A stretch of 64,000 nt of DNA from Plantibacter elymi (nom. nud.) (GTDB taxonomy: Bacteria > Actinomycetota > Actinomycetes > Actinomycetales > Microbacteriaceae), in NCBI RefSeq assembly GCF_900177795.1, contig NZ_FXWJ01000002.1, positions 868,001-932,000 on the forward strand. The letters run 5' to 3'. How positions within the stretch are numbered: position 1 is the stretch's first letter; each line of letters starts with the position of its first letter. Shown piece after piece: positions 20,878-39,682 of the stretch. Both the position numbers and the translations under genes were made by a program. The notes under the pieces are model-generated. The model saw only the letters and a program-made list of their open reading frames with translations, ran no database searches and was not told the origin of the DNA.

Positions 20878-22218
20878 GTGTCCGGTTCCCTCTCCCCCGC
20901 CCTCGCCCGACGGATCGCGCTCGGTGCGCAAGGGTTCGGCGCCCCGCAACGCACGACCCCGGCGGGTACCCGCGCCCTGCGCTCGACGATCGATCGTCTG
21001 GGTCTCCTGCAGATCGACTCCGTCAACGTGTTCGAGCGCAGTCATTACCTGCCGCTGTTCGCGAGGCTCGGCGGATACGACAAGTCGCTGCTCGATCGCC
21101 TGACCCTCGGAGCCGACGCGCCCTACCTCGAGTACTGGGCGCATGAGGCGGCCTTCATCCCCCGCGACTCGTGGCCGCTGTTCCGGTGGCGGATGGACGC
21201 GCACCGCGCGAAGCATGCCGGCGACGAGACCACCTGGGCGAGCCAGAACACGGAGATGTTGGACTGGGTGCGAGCGCTCCTGCGCGTCGAGGGGCCGCTG
21301 AAGGCGAGCGAGATCGAACACGATGCGAACGTCCGACGCGGACCCTGGTGGGGATGGTCCGACGTGAAACGGGCGTTGGAGGTCCTGTTCCTCTACGGCG
21401 AGGTGGTCACGGCCGGTCGCGACCGGTTCGAGCGCCGGTACGCGCTGGCCGAGCATGTGCTGCCGCAGCACGTCCTCGACCTCGACGTCGCCCGGCCCGA
21501 CGCGATCCGTGCGCTCGTCGAGCAGGCAGCGGCAGCGCAGGGCGTCGCGACCGTCGCCGACCTGGCCGACTACTTCCGGATCAAACCGCAGACCGCCGTC
21601 CGCCGAGCGGTCGATGACCTCGTGGACGCCGGTGTCCTCGAATCCGTGACCGTGGCCGGCTGGGACCGACGCGGTGGGCCGCAGGAAGCGTGGCTGCACC
21701 GCGATGCACGACGGCCGCGACGGATCGAGGGGGCCGCGCTGCTCAGCCCGTTCGACCCCGTCGTCTGGTTCCGCGAACGCGCCCTCCGCATGTTCGGACT
21801 CCACTACCGGATCGAGATCTACACACCGGAGCCCAAGCGCGTCTACGGCTACTACGTGCTACCGGTCCTCATCGACGGCGAGATCGTCGCGCGCGTCGAT
21901 CTGAAGAGCGACCGCCAGGCCGGCGTCCTGCGGGTCCAGTCCGCGTGGTTCGAGCGTGGACACCAGGATGCCGTCGCCAGGAGGCTGCGTCCCATCGCCG
22001 ACGACGCGATCGCGGGACGCCTCGCGGAGCTCCTCGAGCAGACGGCCCGCTGGCAGGGACTCGACGCGGTGGTCGTCGTCGACCGCGGGACGCTGGCGGC
22101 ATCGTTGGCGCACGCCGTCGGCACCCGACTCCTCCCGCTCCCTCCCGCGCCGGACACGGGCACTACTCCCCATGCTCAGCCAGCACAATCATTCTCAGGA
22201 GATACACAACAACTATAG
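20878..22218 (+). CDS. YcaQ-like winged-helix DNA glycosylase family protein
   Basis: A 446-residue member of the HTH_42 (YcaQ/AlkZ) family, enzymes that unhook DNA interstrand crosslinks and bulky adducts. The catalytic motif region reads LGLLQIDSVNV near residue 42, a Q-hydrophobic-D pattern. As I recall, this marks the YcaQ-like rather than the AlkZ-like (Q-x-Q) branch. Tandem winged helices follow (GPLKASEIEHD; VATVADLADYFRIKPQTAVRRAVDDLVDAG). The C-terminal beta domain includes LSPFDPVVWFRERALRMFG. It is a housekeeping-type copy, not in an antibiotic cluster. Confidence 0.85.
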   Translation: MSGSLSPALARRIALGAQGFGAPQRTTPAGTRALRSTIDRLGLLQIDSVNVFERSHYLPLFARLGGYDKSLLDRLTLGADAPYLEYWAHEAAFIPRDSWPLFRWRMDAHRAKHAGDETTWASQNTEMLDWVRALLRVEGPLKASEIEHDANVRRGPWWGWSDVKRALEVLFLYGEVVTAGRDRFERRYALAEHVLPQHVLDLDVARPDAIRALVEQAAAAQGVATVADLADYFRIKPQTAVRRAVDDLVDAGVLESVTVAGWDRRGGPQEAWLHRDARRPRRIEGAALLSPFDPVVWFRERALRMFGLHYRIEIYTPEPKRVYGYYVLPVLIDGEIVARVDLKSDRQAGVLRVQSAWFERGHQDAVARRLRPIADDAIAGRLAELLEQTARWQGLDAVVVVDRGTLAASLAHAVGTRLLPLPPAPDTGTTPHAQPAQSFSGDTQQL

Positions 22219-22262
22219 GATTGGCGGGCACCTCCATGGTCCGAAACGAGGGGAACCCGCCC

Positions 22263-23792
22263 ATGAGCAACGACGACACCACACCACAGCAACCAGGCCG
22301 ACCGAACCCGGGCGAGCAGCCGAACCAGCCGTCCCAGGGCGACCAGCAGGCTCCGTACCAGCAGGGTCAGCAGCAGCAGCCCAACCCGTACCAGCAGGGT
22401 CAGCAGCAGCAGCCCAACCCGTACCAGCAGGGTCAGCAGGGTCAGCAGCAGAACCCGTACCAGTCCGGACAGCAGCAGACCCCGAACCCGTACCAGCAGA
22501 GTCAGCAGAACCCGTACCAGTCCGGGCAGCAGCAGACGCCGAACCAGGCGCCCCCGGCTCCCTACGGTCAGCAGACCGGCCAGCAGACCGGCGCCCAGAA
22601 CCCGTACCAGCAGGGACAGCAGCCCAACGGTCAGTACGCGACGGCGCAGAACCCGTACGCGACCGGCGCTCCGAAGCAGCCGATGGACCCGAAGCAGAAG
22701 AAGCGGATCATCCTGTGGTCGTCGATCGCCGGTGGCGCACTCGTGCTCATCGCCGCCGCCGCCATCACCATCGGTGTGCTGAACACCACGGCGTTCGGCC
22801 CGCAGGCGAAGGTCGAGGAATACCTCAAGGCCATCGCCGCCGGCGACGCGAAGCTCGCGACGAGCCTCGTCGCACCGGACCCCTCGATCGTCGGCAGCAC
22901 CGACGACGAGTCCGCAGAGCCCGAGGCGACCCCGGACCCGTCCGCGTCGGCCGATCCGGATGCGGACGCCGAGGCCGAGGCTCCGGCCGCCGTCAAGCCG
23001 ACCGCACTGCTCACGAACGAGGTCCTGAAGGGCGCCGACGAGCGCATCAAGAACCCTGAGGTCGGCCGCGTCTACAACCGCAACGGCGAAGCACGCGTGC
23101 AGGTCACGTACGAACTCGGCGGCAAGAAGTACGAGGACTCGGTCACGCTCGAGAGCGAAGGCAAGCAGTTCCTGTTCTTCGACCAGTGGAAGCTCGCCAG
23201 CTCCCTCGTCGGCAGCATCAACGTCTACACCGGTCTCGGTGGTACCGCGTTCAGTGTCAACGGCGTCAACTTCGACGGCGCGTCCGACGAGAGCCTGTTC
23301 GCCTACCCGGCCATCTACACGGTCGCTCCGCCGGAGAGCAAGTTCCTGCAGGGCGATGCCCAGACCATCACGCTGAGCTCGTACAGCGCCGGCGAGGGTT
23401 CGGCCTTCATCGACATCGACGTGACCGCCACCGAGGCGCTCACGACCGAGGTCACGAAGCAGGTCGTCGCGATGATCGAGAAGTGCCTCGACGTCACCAC
23501 GCTCGACACCACCTGTGGCGTCATGCCGGACTGGCAGCAGAAGCAGTTCACGAGTGTCGGCCCGGTGACCTGGACGCTCACCTCTCCCCCGACCGTCGAG
23601 GTCGACGAGAGCGGTTCGTACTTCTACACCTCGGACGGCCGCATCGACGGTTCGTTCGACGCCTCCTGGTACGGCAGCGCCGTGGCGGGTCAGCAGGTGT
23701 GGGACACGTACCTGAACTTCCCCGGCAAGATCACGATCGACGCCGACGACAAGGTCACGGTGACGTTCGACTCCGACGAGCAGACCGAGTAA
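22263..23792 (+). CDS. Gln/Pro/Tyr-rich repeat membrane protein
   Basis: A 509-residue protein. Residues ~25-140 are low-complexity repeats of the type QQGQQQQPNPY and QSGQQQTPN. One transmembrane helix follows near residue 155 (IILWSSIAGGALVLIAAAAITIGVL), then an extracytoplasmic region. That begins with an acidic Pro/Ala/Asp linker and continues with beta-rich domains containing two Cys (MIEKCLD, DTTCGVM). ATG 22263 follows GAGGGG; an alternative ATG lies at 22236. The cytosolic repeats resemble disordered N-termini of actinobacterial membrane proteins. I do not recognise a named family. Confidence 0.75.
   Translation: MSNDDTTPQQPGRPNPGEQPNQPSQGDQQAPYQQGQQQQPNPYQQGQQQQPNPYQQGQQGQQQNPYQSGQQQTPNPYQQSQQNPYQSGQQQTPNQAPPAPYGQQTGQQTGAQNPYQQGQQPNGQYATAQNPYATGAPKQPMDPKQKKRIILWSSIAGGALVLIAAAAITIGVLNTTAFGPQAKVEEYLKAIAAGDAKLATSLVAPDPSIVGSTDDESAEPEATPDPSASADPDADAEAEAPAAVKPTALLTNEVLKGADERIKNPEVGRVYNRNGEARVQVTYELGGKKYEDSVTLESEGKQFLFFDQWKLASSLVGSINVYTGLGGTAFSVNGVNFDGASDESLFAYPAIYTVAPPESKFLQGDAQTITLSSYSAGEGSAFIDIDVTATEALTTEVTKQVVAMIEKCLDVTTLDTTCGVMPDWQQKQFTSVGPVTWTLTSPPTVEVDESGSYFYTSDGRIDGSFDASWYGSAVAGQQVWDTYLNFPGKITIDADDKVTVTFDSDEQTE
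22341..22540 (+). repeat. In-frame tandem repeats encoding QQ(G/S)QQ..NPY
   Basis: Imperfect repeats built on CAGCAGGGTCAGCAGCAG and AACCCGTACCAG units. They start as two near-identical 33-base copies and become shorter and degenerate. They are coding repeats prone to slippage. Confidence 0.85.
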
Positions 23793-33254: not shown

Positions 33255-33470
33255 TCAGTGCAGCCGGCGGAGCGATGCCGACGCGATGACGGGTCGTGCG
33301 GCTTCGACGTACGACGCCAGCGTCTCGCGCAGTGCCGCCGCGTTGTCGTCGGTCAGGTCGATCTCGTAGTTCTCGCCGTCGATGCCGAACCGGACCGTCT
33401 CCCCCAGCCCGCGGGGGATGTCGGAACCGTCGAGGTCGTCGACGAGCGTCGTGATCGTGCGGGTAGCCAT
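33255..33470 (-). CDS. Stand-alone Lsr2 N-terminal (dimerisation) domain protein
   Basis: A 71-residue protein matching only the N-terminal half of the xenogeneic silencer Lsr2: TTLVDDLDGSD, ETVRFGIDGENYEIDLTDDNA and ALRETLASYVEAAR. The C-terminal AT-hook-like DNA-binding domain with its RGR motif is missing, and the protein ends naturally in VIASASLRRLH. Full Lsr2 is about 110 residues. GGAAGGA precedes the ATG. It lies just outside the left att repeat of the island. It may dimerise with Lsr2 and modulate it; this is inference. Confidence 0.85.
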   Translation of the reverse strand: MATRTITTLVDDLDGSDIPRGLGETVRFGIDGENYEIDLTDDNAAALRETLASYVEAARPVIASASLRRLH

Positions 33471-33506: not shown

Positions 33507-33531
33507 CGTACCCCCGGTGGGGTTCGAACCC
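33507..33531 (+). repeat. attL-like copy of tRNA 3' end (25-bp direct repeat)
   Basis: Bases 33507-33531 are identical to 39607-39631. They correspond to the T arm and 3' acceptor strand of the tRNA gene on the right, plus two flanking bases. The rest of a tRNA is absent here, so this is not a tRNA gene. It marks the distal end of an element integrated at the tRNA 3' end. Confidence 0.85.
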
Positions 33532-33990
33532 TTTAGACACCCCTGTCAGTGCAACCAACCTGTCCCAATTCCGCCAGATTACGGCACTGAGAGCTCACAC
33601 GGACCAGGCTCGATCACCGCAGCTCGGCGGCGAGTGTTGTCACGTCGTTGTCATTAGCTCCACTCGGAGAGTTGGTGACTTGAGTCCTGTCCGCCCTGGC
33701 GATCAGAATGCGCAGCTGGTGATGTCGACTTGGAGCTCTGGTGACGCGAACCGCAGAGCGGTGACCGTTCGGAGCGACGCTGCGGGAGGGTTGGCTGGAG
33801 TTGAGCTGGCGGTCCCAGCGCGGGCGCAGGCACGGCACGCGACACTCCACACATACGCCGCCGTCAGGGTCCCGGACCAGGGCGCGAGCACGGAGCTCGT
33901 CGCGGGCGGTCTGATTCTCCTGCTTCATGCGGATCACGTCAGGGTCTCCCCTACTTGTGAGCCGTCTCCGACGACCGCGAGGATGAGCGA
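33532..33990. other. Left part of island without a confident gene
   Basis: The only sizeable minus-strand frame (33614-33937, 107 codons, GTG preceded by GGGGAGA) encodes a Cys-containing start (CVECRVPC) followed by sequence without recognisable features. It may be a degraded gene. I see no RNA gene or repeat in the remainder. Confidence 0.4.
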
Positions 33991-34269
33991 ATGGACCTCA
34001 ATGAGAACTTCGTCAGCTCCGCCCGCATGCACGACTTCGAGGTGCCCCGGGGTGACCGCACCTTCACGTTCAGCCGCTCCGATGCCATCTCCGGCAATCA
34101 GGTCGCCGAGCTCGTTGTCCTCGACGAAGACCGGCAGCCCATCGGCTACATCGTCCCGTACACCCGAGACGAACACGGTGCCATTGAGTCGAGGTTCTTC
34201 GGGGTGGGGATGCCGTCCGTTTTCAGAACAGTCGAAGATGCTCTCGAGTACATCGCGCCGTCCGTCTGA
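33991..34269 (+). CDS. Hypothetical protein (92 aa)
   Basis: A 92-residue soluble protein with a beta-rich appearance (FEVPRGDRTFTFSR, AELVVLDEDRQPIGYIVPYTRDEHG) and a C-terminal helix (VFRTVEDALEYIAPS). GAGGA lies seven bases before ATG. No Cys, signal or membrane segment. It is island cargo beside the methyltransferase stub, on the opposite strand. The shape could suit a small antitoxin-like or accessory protein, but no family is recognised. Confidence 0.55.
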   Translation: MDLNENFVSSARMHDFEVPRGDRTFTFSRSDAISGNQVAELVVLDEDRQPIGYIVPYTRDEHGAIESRFFGVGMPSVFRTVEDALEYIAPSV

Positions 34270-34274
34270 GGTAG

Positions 34275-34490
34275 TCACGCCGCCACCAGTTCTTCCCCGA
34301 GGAGGAACTCCGCGACCGCGTGCCCGAGGTCGCGGGCTGCCGGCTGCGTCACCGCGTTGCCCGCCTGCTTGACCTGTTCCCGCTTCGTGCCGAGCAGCAC
34401 GTAGTCGCGCGCGAACGCCACGCCGACCACAATCTCGCGCGGTTCGAGCGTCCGGGACCGCGTCTCGGCGGTGCCCTCGGGTATGGGCGG
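34275..34490 (-). pseudogene. C-terminal remnant of C5 cytosine DNA methyltransferase
   Basis: About 71 codons translate to the end of a phage/Dcm-type methyltransferase. RTLEPREIVVGVAF (target-recognition to motif IX junction) is followed by DYVLLGTKREQVKQAGNAVTQP, the motif X region with the conserved Q-GNAV-P. The frame ends at a normal stop (34275-34277). Upstream of about 34490 similarity ceases, and the catalytic PCQ and ENV motifs are missing. It is a broken cargo gene. Confidence 0.75.
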
Positions 34491-34575
34491 CCAACGAACT
34501 CTGCAGAGCGCGCACGCTCGGCTGAAACGGGGACCGCGTCCCGGTGGCTTGCAACCTAAGCCACCGGGACATCAA

Positions 34576-35286
34576 TCAGTCGACCTGGAACTCGCGGGTG
34601 GTGGCGACATCTTTCGCCGTCGGGATGCCTGTCGCGACGACCTGCACCGTGATCGTCCCGTCCTCATTGGTACGGCGGTTCATCTCGACCTCTCCCACAC
34701 GGGTCTTATAGGTCACGAGCTGGGAACGGCCGCTCTCAGTCTCCGTGTTGGTAGCCAGCACAGCGTTCGGGACGAGGCTGACCCGGCACAGCGCTTGGAA
34801 TCCTGCCAGAGTGTCCCCGTCCTTCCCCTTCGTCATGTCGGTTACGAAGAGCGATAGCGCCTTCCAGGCCCAAGGGTCGAACGCGACGCTGGCCGCCCCC
34901 TCTTCAACGCACACGATCAGCCGGTCGGTCTGCTCGTCGAACGTCTCGGCCTTCGTGGACGCGAACATGACCGCGGGCGGGACTCCGTCGCCGTACGAAG
35001 CGGTCGAGAAGAAGTTGTAGCCGCGCGCGACCTCTGCCTCGCGAGCAGCCTTCGCCCCTGCTTCCCAGCTCGCCCACTCGCCCTGCAGTCCCCCCGTGAG
35101 CGTGTCGGCAAGGACCGTAGCGGCGAGGGACGCGCTCATGTCTGCCAGCCACGACCCTGTGAAGGAGGCCACCGCGGGAAGCGCTGCACAACTGCTCAGT
35201 GTTGGCGCGGCCAACACTGCGACGACTCCTGCGCCGCCGATCTGGAAGGCAGATCGTCGACTGATTTTGGGGAGTTCAGTGATCAT
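34576..35286 (-). CDS. Predicted Tat-exported lipoprotein, unknown
   Basis: A 236-residue protein. The N-terminus has a twin-arginine motif (KISRRSAFQIGG), a hydrophobic stretch and a lipobox (TLSSC, Cys near residue 33), so it should be a Tat-exported lipoprotein. The mature part is mixed alpha/beta with Cys residues in IVCVEEG and ALCRVSL, and a C-terminal VEMNRRTNEDGTITVQVVA strand pair. It resembles no family I recognise. It is divergent from the next gene. Confidence 0.6.
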   Translation of the reverse strand: MITELPKISRRSAFQIGGAGVVAVLAAPTLSSCAALPAVASFTGSWLADMSASLAATVLADTLTGGLQGEWASWEAGAKAAREAEVARGYNFFSTASYGDGVPPAVMFASTKAETFDEQTDRLIVCVEEGAASVAFDPWAWKALSLFVTDMTKGKDGDTLAGFQALCRVSLVPNAVLATNTETESGRSQLVTYKTRVGEVEMNRRTNEDGTITVQVVATGIPTAKDVATTREFQVD

Positions 35287-35472
35287 CGGGTCTCACATTC
35301 TCTAGGGGGAACCAGAGGGTATCCAAGCCCGGAACGGACCGGTAGAGCAGTGCTGCAACGATGCTGCAACGGTCATCTGTCCTCGCTGCCCCGGAGCTTT
35401 CCTGGCGACGAACGCAGCCGCGTGTGTCGATCGGACGGAGCTTGTCGATGGTCGCTAGGACGGCGACCGCAG

Positions 35473-35478
35473 TATGTT
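35473..35478 (+). promoter_or_regulatory. Leaderless promoter -10 box of island gene
   Basis: TATGTT, then GTGCTC, then GTG at 35485. Confidence 0.5.
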
Positions 35479-35484
35479 GTGCTC

Positions 35485-36108
35485 GTGACCGAGGACCTTC
35501 CGCCGCAGTACGAGTTGTCGTTCTATCTCGGCGAGATCGTGCGAAATGACACGTGGGCTGAGAACGAGATGAAGAACCTGTGGATGCGACTCGCTCAGGC
35601 GGGCCTTGGCGAAGGCGAGCCGGATCGTGACTTCGCCCGGGTAACCAGGGACGTACGTCGGATGCTCAATCTCGAACCGGTGCCGTCGGAATTCCGAGCC
35701 CTGGCGCTGCCTGCGCTGGAGGCCACTCATCGAGCGCACCGGAGCCGAGTCGGGTATGTTCACCAGATCCTCATCCAGCCGCCTTGGGCGCTGGGACAAC
35801 TCCGTCCTGCGATCGGCGACCAGCCAGCGATTCACATGACGGATCTAATCAAGTGCGCCGAGGAACTGCGGGTGGCGATGTGGCGACTGCGCGGCTTGTG
35901 GATCATCGCGCCGCACTGGCTCGGCTATGGCGACGATGAAGATCAGCGCTGGGACGATCGGCAGGATCTGCTCAGCTGGACCCGCGTCGCCATGGGACAC
36001 ATCGCTGGCGATCGGCGCAGGGTGGTCGGGACAGAGGGCTCGGCCCCAGAGCCAGCCGGAGGGTATCGAGAGCTGTCACCGTCAGGTGGCGACAAGGAGT
36101 CGGAGTGA
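35485..36108 (+). CDS. Hypothetical protein (207 aa)
   Basis: A 207-residue soluble protein from GTG 35485, chosen because TATGTT lies exactly six bases upstream; the frame is open further 5' but that part is low-complexity. Helical, with many Trp, Arg and Asp residues (MKNLWMRLAQAGLG, LRVAMWRLRGLWIIAPHWLGYG) and a disordered Gly/Ser/Glu tail. No signal or membrane helix. Function unknown; it is island cargo. Confidence 0.55.
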   Translation: MTEDLPPQYELSFYLGEIVRNDTWAENEMKNLWMRLAQAGLGEGEPDRDFARVTRDVRRMLNLEPVPSEFRALALPALEATHRAHRSRVGYVHQILIQPPWALGQLRPAIGDQPAIHMTDLIKCAEELRVAMWRLRGLWIIAPHWLGYGDDEDQRWDDRQDLLSWTRVAMGHIAGDRRRVVGTEGSAPEPAGGYRELSPSGGDKESE

Positions 36109-36202
36109 CAAGGCGTCGATTCCGGCCTGCTAGATGGTGAAGACGATGATCACCGCCAGCGACGACGCTCGACAGCGTTCCTGTCCCACTGCGCTGGTCA
36201 CG

Positions 36203-36412
36203 CTACCGGCGACGTCGACGAGTCGGCGTGATCCGCCGACCGGCCTCCCTGTAGGGCTGGAGCGCCTCGCGGAGCGCCTCGGCGTTGTCGTCGCTGAGAT
36301 CAATCTCATAGGTACGGCCACCCACGCCGAACCGGATCGTCTCGCCAGATCCTCGCTGAAGGTCTGTTCCGTCGAGGTCGTCGATGAGCGTTGTTACTCT
36401 GCGCTGTGCCAT
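36203..36412 (-). CDS. Second stand-alone Lsr2 N-terminal domain protein
   Basis: A 69-residue protein with TTLIDDLDGTD, ETIRFGVGGRTYEIDLSDDNAEALREAL. It is about two-thirds identical by eye over the first 59 residues to the product at 33255-33470. It stops after a basic tail (RRITPTRRRRR) and lacks the Lsr2 C-terminal DNA-binding domain. GAGGAGGA precedes the ATG. It lies inside the island, so it is likely carried by it. A truncated silencer subunit on a mobile element recalls H-NS-like antagonists in enterobacteria; antagonism here is inference. Confidence 0.85.
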   Translation of the reverse strand: MAQRRVTTLIDDLDGTDLQRGSGETIRFGVGGRTYEIDLSDDNAEALREALQPYREAGRRITPTRRRRR

Positions 36413-36782
36413 GAAGTCCTCCTCGCATCTGAGCACAGGCCCACGGACAGCGTCTCCGGGAGGGGAGTCTCGGCCGGATCGCTGGGCGTCAGGTGGCGAC
36501 AACGGCCAGCTGTTCACCTGAACGCGGGCGGTGTGCTGTAGCGCCGTCGGTCGTCCACCTCAGAGCTGCCGCTGTAGCCCCACCGGTGGATGCCGAGCGT
36601 GCAGAGCAACTTCATCGTGACTTCCCATGTGTCCTTGTCGGGGCGGGCGCGGCGTCTGCCGTCACGCCCGCCCCGAATGGTGGATTGTTCTCACCCCGAA
36701 GTGCTCACGATCCGGCCTGGCGAAGGGCGCCCGGGATATGACGAAGGCCACTGAGACCGACGCCCGTCGGTATGGTTCAGGC
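36413..36782. other. Island stretch without a clear gene; one hairpin
   Basis: Contains a perfect 11-bp inverted repeat CGGGGCGGGCG/CGCCCGCCCCG (36639-36649 and 36665-36675) with a 15-base loop, perhaps a terminator left from a lost gene. An ATG at 36738 could extend the next gene by 15 codons. Nothing else recognised. Confidence 0.5.
36771..36776 (+). promoter_or_regulatory. Leaderless promoter -10 box of membrane protein gene
   Basis: TATGGT, then TCAGGC, then ATG at 36783. Confidence 0.5.
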
Positions 36783-37331
36783 ATGGATTGGGCTGACCTA
36801 ATGAAGACCGTGGCCGTATTGCTGGTTGGTGCCGGGATCTCGATTGGAACATCAGTCGTGCTCGATCGGCTCCGATTCCGCAGAGACGAAGCAGCAGCAG
36901 AGACTAAGCGTCAAAGCGAACTGGCGGAGTCCCGCAGGGTGGAGGCCGCTGACCACATTGCCAAGGTGTACAGACACCTGACCACCATGTGGCGGTACTC
37001 GACCACCGTCAGCATGGGGTCTAAGCGCCCTGCGCCTCCTCCTGAGGCGGTAGAGGCCGTGAATGAGCTCTGGCACACCTTCCAGCTCATCCCGGATGCC
37101 GTCGTGCGTGAGGCCGTGCATAATGGCCTCTACGCTCTGGGCAATCTCCAGAGTCTCGACAACTACCCCTGGAAGTATCAGGAGCTAGGTGAGGATGGCT
37201 ACCGCCAGACTGTGACCTCAATGCGGGACGTCGTCGCGGCGTACCTACGCCGGGACGAGCTGCCCCAAGACGAGGTCACGCAGCTCGGCGGCGTGGCCGA
37301 CTTGCTCGACCAGATCCAGCCTTTCAACTGA
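36783..37331 (+). CDS. Hypothetical single-span membrane protein
   Basis: A 182-residue protein. An N-terminal helix starts almost at the first residue (MKTVAVLLVGAGISIGTSVVL), then comes a basic stretch and a charged helical domain (RFRRDEAAAETKRQSELAESRRVEAADHIAKVYRHL), likely coiled coil and cytosolic. ATG 36783 is favoured by the TATGGT box six bases upstream. Codon use and G+C look less extreme than in flanking core genes. Function unknown; the layout is common for small island or phage-encoded membrane sensors. Confidence 0.6.
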   Translation: MDWADLMKTVAVLLVGAGISIGTSVVLDRLRFRRDEAAAETKRQSELAESRRVEAADHIAKVYRHLTTMWRYSTTVSMGSKRPAPPPEAVEAVNELWHTFQLIPDAVVREAVHNGLYALGNLQSLDNYPWKYQELGEDGYRQTVTSMRDVVAAYLRRDELPQDEVTQLGGVADLLDQIQPFN

Positions 37332-37473
37332 GCACACTGCTGCACTTCTTTGAGCACGGGGTGGGAGTCCAGCGCGGCACTGTCCCCACCCCAGGACATT
37401 GATCACTCCACATCCCGAGATGCTTATGATGCCGAACAGTCTCTCGACTTGGGGTCGATCCGGCCAGAAACAC

Positions 37474-37502
37474 GAAAGCCGCCCAGGGGCCGGGCGGCTT
37501 TC
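37474..37502 (+). terminator. Terminator in island
   Basis: An 11-bp stem GAAAGCCGCCC/GGGCGGCTTTC with a seven-base loop, 142 bases after the preceding plus-strand stop. The remainder of 37332-37649, including a run of nine G residues near 37530, shows no gene. Confidence 0.65.
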
Positions 37503-37649
37503 TCATGATCGTGCTTAGTTTCTATCTGGGGGGGGGACAACGGAACGGTGTCAACCGCCTCAGCAAAAGATGTTGGGAATGCAGTCGAGGCGTGCATAAG
37601 ACGCAGCTCTCGGCTCGTTGAACTCTACTCAAACCGTGGGCCGGCACGG

Positions 37650-38522
37650 TCAAGATCGAGTAGCTACTGTGGCGCGAATCGGCAGCCACGGTCGCACGAC
37701 CGGGCGAGGAGCGGGCGTACCAAGGGTCTCCCCTTCGGGCGTGAGTAACGCGGCCGCAGCGACCAACTCTCCGATGGCAGCTACGAGATAGGCGTCGGAC
37801 GCGAGATCCAGGTGAGCCTGAGTTATGCGCGAGGGAGTGGTGGTCTCGATCACGAGCACCCCCACGGAGCGCTTGTCACCTTCGATTCGGAGAGCCGCTA
37901 CGGTCTTGGCTCGCATCCGCATACGAGCGATGTCGTCGTCAGTGAAGTTCTGGCGTCTGGCTGCTTTGTCCCAGGTCTCCCTGTTGGCGCTCATCTGGAC
38001 AAGCGCCTGTCCATGCTCGGCGGCCCAAGCCGTGCCGATTGCGCCCTGGTCGATGGGATAGTGTCCTCGGCCCTTCTTCGCGAAGTTCGGGTTCTTCGCT
38101 GACCGAGCCAGCATGACGAACTGGTTCTCGTGGTAGTAGTACACGCTGAACCGATCTGAGTGCCCTTCGAGCTTGCAGTACTTCGCCAAGTGTTCGAGCA
38201 GGATCTGAAGCGAGCGCTCGAGCGCCCGCGATTTGGCTGCAGCCTTCTCTTCCGCTTCCTCGCGCAGCTTAGCTAGGTGCATGTAGCTGGGTCGCTGGAC
38301 GATGATCTCCGACAAGAATGCAGCGCCTGTGGCACCGAGACCAAGCCAAAAGAGCCACACGTGTTCTTCCCACCCGCCCCCTAACCCTCCCCAGATCGCG
38401 AGTGCAAGCGCGCCACCTCCGCCAAGGGTTCGCGGCAACCACCCCTTTACGAGACGAGCGAGCCAAACCACAGCTTTCGCAACTGTCTGCACTGCAGGCT
38501 GCGCGGCTCGCGCCGAGCTCAT
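37650..38522 (-). CDS. Membrane protein with GAF-like sensor domain
   Basis: A 290-residue protein. Two membrane helices near residues 32-75 (GGALALAIWGG; VWLFWLGLGATGAAFLSEIIV) are followed by a charged coiled coil (KLREEAEEKAAAKSRALERSL) and a cytosolic domain of about 130 residues. That domain reads like a GAF fold: RFSVYYYHENQFVMLARS, YPIDQGAIGTAWAAEHGQAL, and AALRIEGDKRSVGVLVIETTTP. A Pro-rich tail ends the protein. The start overlaps the upstream gene's stop (ATGA), so the pair is co-translated. No effector domain follows the sensor-like part. The GAF call is by pattern, not alignment. Confidence 0.65.
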   Translation of the reverse strand: MSSARAAQPAVQTVAKAVVWLARLVKGWLPRTLGGGGALALAIWGGLGGGWEEHVWLFWLGLGATGAAFLSEIIVQRPSYMHLAKLREEAEEKAAAKSRALERSLQILLEHLAKYCKLEGHSDRFSVYYYHENQFVMLARSAKNPNFAKKGRGHYPIDQGAIGTAWAAEHGQALVQMSANRETWDKAARRQNFTDDDIARMRMRAKTVAALRIEGDKRSVGVLVIETTTPSRITQAHLDLASDAYLVAAIGELVAAAALLTPEGETLGTPAPRPVVRPWLPIRATVATRS

Positions 38523-38851
38523 GCGAGGACGAGCGCCGACTCTTCGCGCTCCGGCCGGAGAGGCTTAGACCCATCTTGAGCAGCCACAAGTTCGACCGCT
38601 TCGTTCAGCATGTCGACAGCCATTTCCTCGATGTATCGGGGGTCGGCTCCGTCAAACCGGAAGCCAAGCATGAAGTCGCCTGTGCCCCGGTCCGGCGTGA
38701 CGAAATACGCTGTGACTGCTGGGTTGTCCGACAGCACGGTGCGGACGGCATCCTCGAGCTTTCGAGCGAACTCATCGAGGTGTTCAAGGGGTAGATGAGG
38801 GAACGTCACAGTCGTTGTGAGTTCGAAGACGCGCTTTCCAGAATCGGACAC
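38519..38851 (-). CDS. Hypothetical partner of GAF-like membrane protein
   Basis: A 110-residue protein from GTG 38851, chosen because GGGGAGG lies five bases upstream; the frame extends to a GTG at 38896 without a binding site. It alternates beta strands and helices (KRVFELTTTVTFPHLPLEHLDEFARKLEDAVR; YIEEMAVDMLNEAVELVA). No Cys, membrane or signal segments. It overlaps the next gene by four bases. The fold looks like a small ferredoxin-like or ACT-sized domain, but no family is recognised. Confidence 0.6.
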   Translation of the reverse strand: MSDSGKRVFELTTTVTFPHLPLEHLDEFARKLEDAVRTVLSDNPAVTAYFVTPDRGTGDFMLGFRFDGADPRYIEEMAVDMLNEAVELVAAQDGSKPLRPEREESALVLA

Positions 38852-38936
38852 TTCAGCCTCCCCAATTGCCTTACTGCGCTTGACCCGACCATACACTGTC
38901 CCGCGCTTACCGCATCCCGGCGCCGCGAGTAGAAAT

Positions 38937-39020
38937 CATGTCGTTTGCGCTGGTGGACACCGCTCTCTGGTCTACACGCTCGCATACACGGGCCTACGAT
39001 GGGGCGAAGCGACCGCTTTT
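38937..39020 (+). pseudogene. Tyrosine integrase remnant (Arg-I box)
   Basis: Twenty-eight codons include LVYTLAYTGLRWGEATAF, which matches the catalytic Arg-I box of actinobacterial phage-type tyrosine recombinases (LAYTGLRWGEA). Similarity stops on both sides, and the frame soon meets a different gene start. It points toward the tRNA/att site, as expected for the island integrase. Confidence 0.75.
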
Positions 39021-39040
39021 GGTGCTTACTGGACGCCCGG

Positions 39041-39046
39041 TAGCTT
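39041..39046 (+). promoter_or_regulatory. Leaderless promoter -10 box of small membrane gene
   Basis: TAGCTT, then CGAGAG, then ATG at 39053. Confidence 0.5.
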
Positions 39047-39052
39047 CGAGAG

Positions 39053-39388
39053 ATGACTTCGACACCACGCACCCGCACCGAGATAATCGAGCTCAACTTG
39101 AAGCAGATTCAGTGGTGGTGGGTGGGCCTCGGCGCTGTGACGTGCTTGGGTCTCGGGATTTCCTACGCGCTCGGTGGTTCCACTCTCGGAACGCGCGTCG
39201 GCATCATCGTGACCATCGTGGGTCTGCTAGCTGAAGTCATCGCGCAGACCGAGAACGCACAAACCGACCCGAATCAGAAATGGTGGGAGATCCTTCGAGA
39301 CACGGGCGCCGCTATGAAGCTCGTCGGACTCATCCCGCTCGCGCTCCAGCTCTTCGACCTGAAATTCGAAGGCCTCATGGCCGGTTAG
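39053..39388 (+). CDS. Small membrane protein, unknown
   Basis: A 111-residue protein with two or three hydrophobic segments (WWWVGLGAVTCLGLGISYALGG; VGIIVTIVGLLAEVIAQ; LVGLIPLALQLF). The start is supported by the TAGCTT box. It sits between the two integrase remnants, so it was probably inserted into, or replaced the centre of, the integrase. Function unknown. Confidence 0.55.
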   Translation: MTSTPRTRTEIIELNLKQIQWWWVGLGAVTCLGLGISYALGGSTLGTRVGIIVTIVGLLAEVIAQTENAQTDPNQKWWEILRDTGAAMKLVGLIPLALQLFDLKFEGLMAG

Positions 39389-39479
39389 GCCCGAAACCAC
39401 GAAACGGCCCCTCCTGACCCACAGGCCTGAAGAGACTGTCAATCATCGGGCCACGAGCAACCGAACTCCTGCGCAGCAG

Positions 39480-39590
39480 CATATAGACGACCTCGACGCC
39501 GTTGCGGACGCCCTCAATCAGGCGAAGGTGGAGACGGTTGTTGTCGAACCGTTGTCGCGGAGACCGATCAGGACGCTCAGATCCACGTGA
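39480..39590 (+). pseudogene. Tyrosine integrase C-terminal tail remnant
   Basis: Thirty-six codons and a stop read HIDDLDAVADALNQAKVETVVV, matching the tail after the catalytic Tyr in actinobacterial integrases (YSHLFDDDLDAVADALN-type, from memory). The catalytic HxxR and Tyr region is missing. It ends 16 bases before the right att repeat, the usual position of an integrase 3' end. Confidence 0.6.
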
Positions 39591-39606
39591 TTCTGCGGCA
39601 TACGAA

Positions 39607-39631
39607 CGTACCCCCGGTGGGGTTCGAACCC
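39607..39631 (+). repeat. attR-like direct repeat within tRNA 3' end
   Basis: Identical over 25 bases to 33507-33531, covering the tRNA acceptor 3' strand and T arm. The identity breaks immediately outside on both sides. Confidence 0.85.
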
Positions 39632-39682
39632 ACACTGCGGCGATTTTAAGTCGCCTGCCTCTGCCAGTTGGGCTACGGGGGC
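39609..39682 (-). tRNA. tRNA with UAA anticodon, class I shape (tRNA-Leu(UAA)?)
   Basis: On the minus strand a complete cloverleaf folds. Acceptor is GCCCCCG/CGGGGGU with a terminal G-U; the D arm is GCC...GGC; anticodon stem GGCGA/UCGCC with loop CUUAAAA; T stem GUGGG/CCCAC with UUCGAAC; discriminator A73. The anticodon UAA reads the UUA leucine codon. The variable loop is only five bases (GCAGU), so this is a class I tRNA, whereas bacterial leucine tRNAs are normally class II. A73 fits leucine identity. No encoded CCA. Its 3' end is the att site of the island. Confidence 0.85.

Follow-up and report, generated by a model that had tools for sequence, protein, structure and literature searches.

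A stretch of 64,000 nucleotides from Plantibacter elymi (contig NZ_FXWJ01000002.1, positions 868,001 to 932,000; here referred to as the window) contains a block of 6.1 kb, at 33507-39631, that ends in the 3' end of a tRNA gene. How did this block arrive there, can it still move, and what could its genes do? In all likelihood, it is foreign DNA, namely a decayed tRNA-integrated island, probably inserted by a tyrosine integrase that is now fragmentary, and it is not expected to move alone. The island itself is ordinary but cleanly documented, namely by a repeat pair, an empty site in relatives, and remnants. What is new here is the group to which one of its genes belongs, i.e., short Lsr2 proteins as truncated xenogeneic silencers; truncated silencers as a kind are already known.

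The tRNA-Leu site and its occupants

The following features mark the two ends of the island:
33507..33531, no strand: distal repeat copy, a displaced tRNA 3' fragment (repeat search and empty-site alignment)
39607..39631, no strand: repeat copy on the tRNA side (repeat search)
39608..39682, minus strand: intact tRNA-Leu(TAA), the integration target (tRNA call; called by ARAGORN in 6/6 congeners)

An earlier note on this DNA had reported a 25-bp exact repeat at the tRNA 3' end and again 6,100 bases away, and both copies of this direct repeat could be located (33507-33531 and 39607-39631, 6100 apart). They are the sole matches in the window with three or fewer mismatches, and shuffled sequences gave a mean of 0. 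The right copy is the 3' end of tRNA-Leu(TAA), and the left copy, which lies downstream of the tRNA in the same orientation, is the displaced 3' fragment. The note had also considered that the repeat might be common elsewhere in the genome; its 21-bp core has two copies in the whole 4.12-Mb genome, both at the island ends. The core motif was found in 11 of 359 genomes of the family, with two copies only in the genome studied here (G000).

All six available congeners (G001-G006) were compared at this site. In two of them (G004 and G005) the site is empty: the left flank up to 33531 joins the right flank from 39607, the two sharing one 25-bp copy. A single repeat copy is present at the site in all six, as the note had expected of relatives that lack the island, and none of them holds island-like DNA there, except for an Lsr2-like stretch of the neighbouring core gene. 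The opposite outcome, i.e., the same genes in the same order without the repeats, was thus encountered in no congener. The two-repeat signature of site-specific integration belongs, among the seven genomes, to the window's occupant only, and the proposed site-specific insertion at the tRNA 3' end is supported by the empty site and by the single copies.

The composition agrees with the expected deviation across 33.5-39.6 kb, both in guanine-plus-cytosine content (GC) and in codon use. The island has 62.9% GC versus 69.8% outside (458 outside windows of the same size span 67.6-72.1%), and GC at third codon positions is 0.66-0.82 in the eight island genes versus 0.86-0.89 in four neighbours. The chromosomal tRNA 3' end would have recombined with the copy brought by an incoming phage-like or integrative element, so that one side regained a complete tRNA and the displaced 3' fragment came to lie 6.1 kb away; later deletions would then have stripped most mobility genes and spared a few cargo genes. 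Two cargo genes, E and F (listed below), speak for insertion as well: the pair occurs in an IMG/VR viral contig (L047), and a relative of gene E lies beside a tRNA-Ser gene (L049).

The tRNA-Leu junction is a hotspot, since other DNA occupies it in G001 (~3.7 kb), G002 (~1.8 kb), G003 (~1.4 kb), and G006 (~1.4 kb), the DNA of G003 and G006 being common to both. Between tRNA-Leu and the core short lsr2 gene, these congeners (L028-L031) carry unrelated gene sets of 1.4-3.7 kb without a second repeat, which may reflect an integration hotspot or older, repeat-less inserts.

Integrase remnants and the kind of element

Three remnants within the island bear on its origin:
38949..39017, plus strand: tyrosine integrase fragment with the GLRWGE box, ~23 residues (phage tblastn, PHROGs, reverse test)
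39480..39590 (approx.), plus strand: candidate integrase C-terminal fragment (by eye; resembles the ends of the L074 and Schmidt integrases)
34278..34445, minus strand: C-terminal remnant of a C5 DNA methyltransferase of phage type (DNA match to phage methylases)

A 28-residue stretch (~38937-39020) matched 27 of 50,697 phage records in tblastn at an expect value (E) of 10 or less; 17 of the 20 listed are annotated as integrase or recombinase, and the other three are unannotated or hypothetical. Streptomyces phage VWB is the best phage match (E 0.08), and PHROGs returned integrase for the fragment at E 0.074. In a reverse test, four of five whole integrases placed the GLRWGE box at 38949-39017 with E 0.002-0.006, the reversed-sequence control reaching 0.022 at best. 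The VWB, Footloose, and Schmidt integrases had been picked by the fragment itself, so that L074 is the sole independent match; for its integrase, the island spot is the second-best place, behind a low-complexity place. The expected place of the remaining integrase is occupied by genes F and G.

The genome contains four PF00589 domains, none of them inside the island, in line with the note's claim that the integrase has been lost. Because the integrase is only fragmentary and this domain is missing, the island is predicted to be immobile by itself, though excision in trans may still occur; we infer insertion by an integrase, later deletion, and immobility. From the integrase fragments that the note had listed, the one at 38949-39017 stood, through its phage integrase matches, and the second piece (~39480-39590) is seen by eye only. 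The methyltransferase stub was borne out at the DNA level, where it matches DNA methylases of Gordonia phages (E 2e-13 at best among the matches listed); its match to Pfam DNA_methylase is weak (E 0.085). That both the integrase and the methyltransferase are broken suggests that a once larger element was whittled down.

As for the type of element, searches of the eight island open reading frames (ORFs) with Pfam, PHROGs, PADLOC, and NCBIfam found no packaging, primase/replication, or AlpA-type gene. Likewise, these ORFs include no relaxase or FtsK-type transfer gene and gave no convincing PHROG match to phage structural or lysis genes (best: holin, E 0.25).

Several points weigh against an integrase-delivered, decayed island. 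The integrase fragment is just ~23 residues long, and three of the four matching whole integrases were found through it; those of L073, L138, L146, and L147 show no match at 38949-39017. The candidate C-terminal piece has no statistical or database support. Without a phage structural gene among the ORFs tested, the origin may be a prophage, an integrative and conjugative element, or an integrative and mobilisable element. Finally, four of six congeners hold other DNA at the junction with one repeat copy, so a repeat pair is not needed for DNA to enter the spot or to stay there.

This last point is also what favours delivery without any integrase, in which the region downstream of the tRNA would be a general hotspot and the second repeat would have been duplicated in another recombination event. 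Such a course of events is improbable, as the displaced 3' fragment is exact and rightly oriented, an integrase remnant lies near the tRNA end, and the repeat is unique in the genome. Least probable of all is a phage satellite (like P4 or a phage-inducible chromosomal island) or mobilisable island that has lost its integrase alone and that a helper still mobilises in trans: its small size, the tRNA site, the two intact repeats, and two tyrosine recombinases elsewhere in the genome (frames of 387 and 375 aa) would suit it, but packaging, replication, and helper-hijack genes are absent from the eight ORFs tested, and the truncation of both methyltransferase and integrase makes internal deletions likely, so the satellite suggested by the note found no support.

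The short Lsr2 and its relatives

A decayed island being the preferred account, the question turns to what it has kept. Two short Lsr2 genes lie in or beside it:
36203..36412, minus strand: short Lsr2, 69 aa, dimerisation domain only, with an Arg-rich tail (PF11774 without PF23359)
33255..33470, minus strand: conserved short Lsr2, 71 aa, a core gene just outside the island (in all 7 genomes)

The Lsr2-type gene named in the note was confirmed by a PF11774 match (E 2.7e-23). Pfam did not find the DNA-binding domain PF23359 in the protein, and no remnant of that domain was seen by eye in any frame downstream of the gene. Of 30 relatives searched with PF11774, 17 gave a match. Within the genus, the seven genomes contain 28 PF11774 matches: a core full-length Lsr2 (111 aa) in 7/7 genomes, four accessory full-length copies, the core short Lsr2 at the island's left edge (71 aa) in 7/7 genomes, nine sporadic short copies, counting the island's, in five genomes (69-76 aa, with one of 99 aa), and a single degenerate copy. 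PF23359 was present in none of the 11 short copies scanned (all nine sporadic and two of the seven core ones) versus 7/7 full-length ones scanned.

Copies from outside the genus, plasmids, and viral contigs were classed by length and eye. Outside the genus, 11 of 12 Lsr2 matches were read, and all are full length (108-125 aa); on plasmids, the nine checked of 87 matching records measure 109-116 aa, and on viral contigs 18 of 21 are full length. Two of the three short viral-contig copies (L146 and L147) sit 361 bp from an integrase, and the Lsr2 and integrase of L146 are identical to those of locus L138 in G002, where tail genes lie close by.

When 22 chosen Lsr2 rows were placed in a tree, the 11 short ones fell on one side of a branch with support 83/84 (84% of 200 bootstrap trees). 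Because the short copies share that side, one truncation followed by spread would be the simplest reading of the group, as judged from only 60 alignment columns. The core short Lsr2 is under purifying selection (nonsynonymous divergence, dN, 0-0.05; synonymous divergence, dS, 0.07-0.47). In the same tree, this copy beside the tRNA-Leu site groups weakly (80/68) with a prophage copy. The core gene (33255-33470 and its orthologues in G001-G006) may be a domesticated phage gene.

The surroundings of the sporadic short copies are low in GC: over 3.18 kb, the nine have 59.4-63.8%, compared with 68.5-69.3% for core full-length and 66.2-70.5% for core short copies. Gene neighbours were taken from five of the eight other sporadic loci, as 10 ORFs picked by eye, and serve as examples and not as a measure of enrichment. 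At L138 they include an integrase and a protein resembling a tail spike; at L140, a GmrSD_N/NsnA protein, its HEPN partner, and an AAA ATPase; at L142, a relaxase and a candidate PDC-S11; at L143, an N6 methylase; and at L144, a SIR2/nSTAND protein. One of the 10 had no match, and two tested later gave none above threshold; no tRNA was found in any of the eight stretches. Two loci of G003 stand out by their arrangement. At 9137-12587 of L144, the short lsr2 lies just upstream of the gene for the 1013-aa SIR2/nSTAND protein, which matches the ThsA and LmuA models; at 8957-10805 of L140, it is divergent from the adjoining GmrSD_N/NsnA-like gene, which is followed by the HEPN-like gene.

What could such a protein do? 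H-NST, the dimerisation part of H-NS, is encoded on islands and is described as antagonising H-NS (PMC7074111, PMC6936261), with some DNA binding of its own also reported (PMC7074111). Under truncated derivatives, a table in a 2019 review names H-NST for H-NS and sRok for Rok, the Lsr2 entry reading 'unidentified' (PMC6936261), and a table of plasmid and phage Lsr2 homologues gives these as full-length (PMC7074111). A non-exhaustive literature search found no natural truncated Lsr2 in print.

By analogy with H-NST, a counter-silencing role may be supposed for the island Lsr2. Since it keeps the dimerisation domain and has lost the Lsr2 DNA-binding domain, it would loosen silencing: by joining host filaments, it would ease the silencing of lower-GC genes, e.g., the island's own. 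Our tentative reading of the cargo has two parts, namely, I) that the short Lsr2 still dimerises, enters host Lsr2 filaments, and loosens silencing, and II) that the GAF/ferredoxin-fold pair encoded by genes E and F is a ligand-sensing membrane module. A wider proposal, held with equally guarded confidence, is that a mobile clade of natural truncated Lsr2 poisons or tunes host Lsr2 filaments and could thereby play the part of H-NST in actinobacteria; prophages and islands would have spread it, one copy would have been domesticated next to the integration tRNA, and its members would repeatedly have come to lie near integrase, relaxase, or anti-phage defence genes.

Two observations count against these proposals. 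The four accessory full-length Lsr2 genes lie in equally low GC (60.0-64.2%), and low GC therefore marks accessory Lsr2 generally, not short Lsr2. Moreover, the Arg-rich tail may be enough for DNA binding, which would favour a co-silencer. A co-silencer or neutral paralogue, whose basic tail replaces the DNA-binding domain and helps to coat the element, is a serious contender, if somewhat short of probable. It is in keeping with the Arg/Lys-rich tails of sporadic short copies, with full-length Lsr2 at 18/21 viral-contig loci, and with the purifying selection on the conserved short copy; the lack of PF23359 from every short copy scanned and the antagonism described for the dimerisation-only form of H-NS (PMC7074111) are harder to reconcile with it. 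In either case, the genus supplies a group of truncated Lsr2, one conserved and nine scattered in low-GC DNA, and if these do antagonise Lsr2, mobile elements of high-GC bacteria would be using the same trick as E. coli islands.

Cargo genes and comparison with known systems

Besides the short Lsr2, the island carries seven cargo genes:
33991..34269, plus strand: gene A, 92 aa, assigned to no family (matched in two further genomes of 249)
34576..35286, minus strand: gene B, 236 aa, twin-arginine/lipoprotein-like start by eye (own genome only, of 249)
35485..36108, plus strand: gene C, 207 aa (some relatives near integrases or resolvase)
36735..37331, plus strand: gene D, ~198 aa, start uncertain, N-terminal membrane segment by eye (family search)
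37650..38522, minus strand: gene E, 290 aa, helices at the N-terminus (by eye, a membrane anchor) and GAF domain (Pfam GAF, AlphaFold (AF2), PDB folds)
38519..38851, minus strand: gene F, 110 aa, predicted ferredoxin-like fold (AF2, conserved pair with E)
39053..39388, plus strand: gene G, 111 aa, probable two-helix membrane protein (weak PADLOC 2TM match, E 0.016)

The E/F pair is a second compact module, and it recurs in mobile DNA. The stop of F overlaps the start of E by 4 bp, and F directly precedes E in L045, L046, L047, and L048, with L045 (Microbacterium algeriense) and L047 (the viral contig) having the same sequence; in Agromyces atrinae, too, E and F have adjacent locus tags. The position of F is taken in L049 and L050 by a small ORF without sequence match to F, and in L049 the E relative with this partner abuts the 3' end of tRNA-Ser. 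On this sequence evidence, E/F appears to be a module that recurs elsewhere, including in mobile DNA. AF2 models gene E as long N-terminal helices plus a GAF domain (predicted local distance difference test score, pLDDT, 81.5; GAF folds matched in PDB) and gene F as a ferredoxin-like fold (pLDDT 89.5), from which the ligand-sensing membrane role of the pair is predicted.

Judged by sequence matches, all island cargo is sporadic in the family: with the own genome included, E is matched in 8/299 genomes, F in 2/299, B in 1/249, C in 8/249, D in 6/249, and A in 3/249, several of these matches being weak (expect value above 1e-5). Gene B gave only a CbtA match in Pfam, below threshold, and gene D had no phage match. 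The note's description of the cargo as unknown can be sharpened by the GAF/ferredoxin-fold pair and the short Lsr2. The note had proposed to look for cargo recurring beside integrases at tRNA sites; some cargo relatives do lie near integrases or tRNAs. Among the gene C neighbourhoods, from which the four weakest relatives were left out, one relative (L073, in G134) has an integrase no more than 5 kb away and a Pycsar effector (PF18967, E 5e-10; cyclase below threshold) in its vicinity, one (L074, in G022) lies near an integrase at tRNA-Arg, and one (L072, in G118) adjoins a serine resolvase by eye. No integrase motif was found around the two gene A relatives and the one gene D relative fetched. 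Besides the integrase and the gene C relative, the L073 stretch (G134 C48:6000-22000) encodes a helix-turn-helix-like protein, whose match is below cut-off, and a cyclase/PycTM effector pair of Pycsar type. Two further sequence peculiarities were seen in the window: a nine-G run inside the island between genes D and E (37528-37536), and a repeat-rich segment at 22300-22630 with strong AT skew (0.379 at 22001-23000) and several overlapping alignments to one congener.

Compared with known systems, the block resembles Islander-type tRNA islands, as described in PMC4383910, in its intact tRNA gene and in a displaced 3' fragment whose side and orientation are correct, and its 6.1 kb falls within their 2-200 kb filter; it differs in having no intact integrase ORF and fails the integrase filter, which makes it a decayed member. 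With the 'grounded' (defective) prophages of PMC6379469, it shares a broken recombinase and retained cargo; unlike in those, no phage structural gene was found here, and a phage origin would rest on the methylase fragment and the cargo relatives. The short Lsr2 resembles H-NST of E. coli islands, as presented in PMC7074111 and PMC6936261, since it is island-encoded, contains the dimerisation domain only, and belongs to a host that keeps full-length silencers; however, the silencer family here is Lsr2, antagonism is supposed by analogy, and the short clade also includes a copy that is conserved as a core gene of the genus. Lastly, the Lsr2 homologues reported for actinobacteriophages and plasmids (PMC8612146, PMC7074111) have the same N-terminal domain and likewise lie on mobile DNA, whereas those checked here are, by length, full-length proteins at the plasmid (9/9) and viral-contig (18/21) proportions given above.

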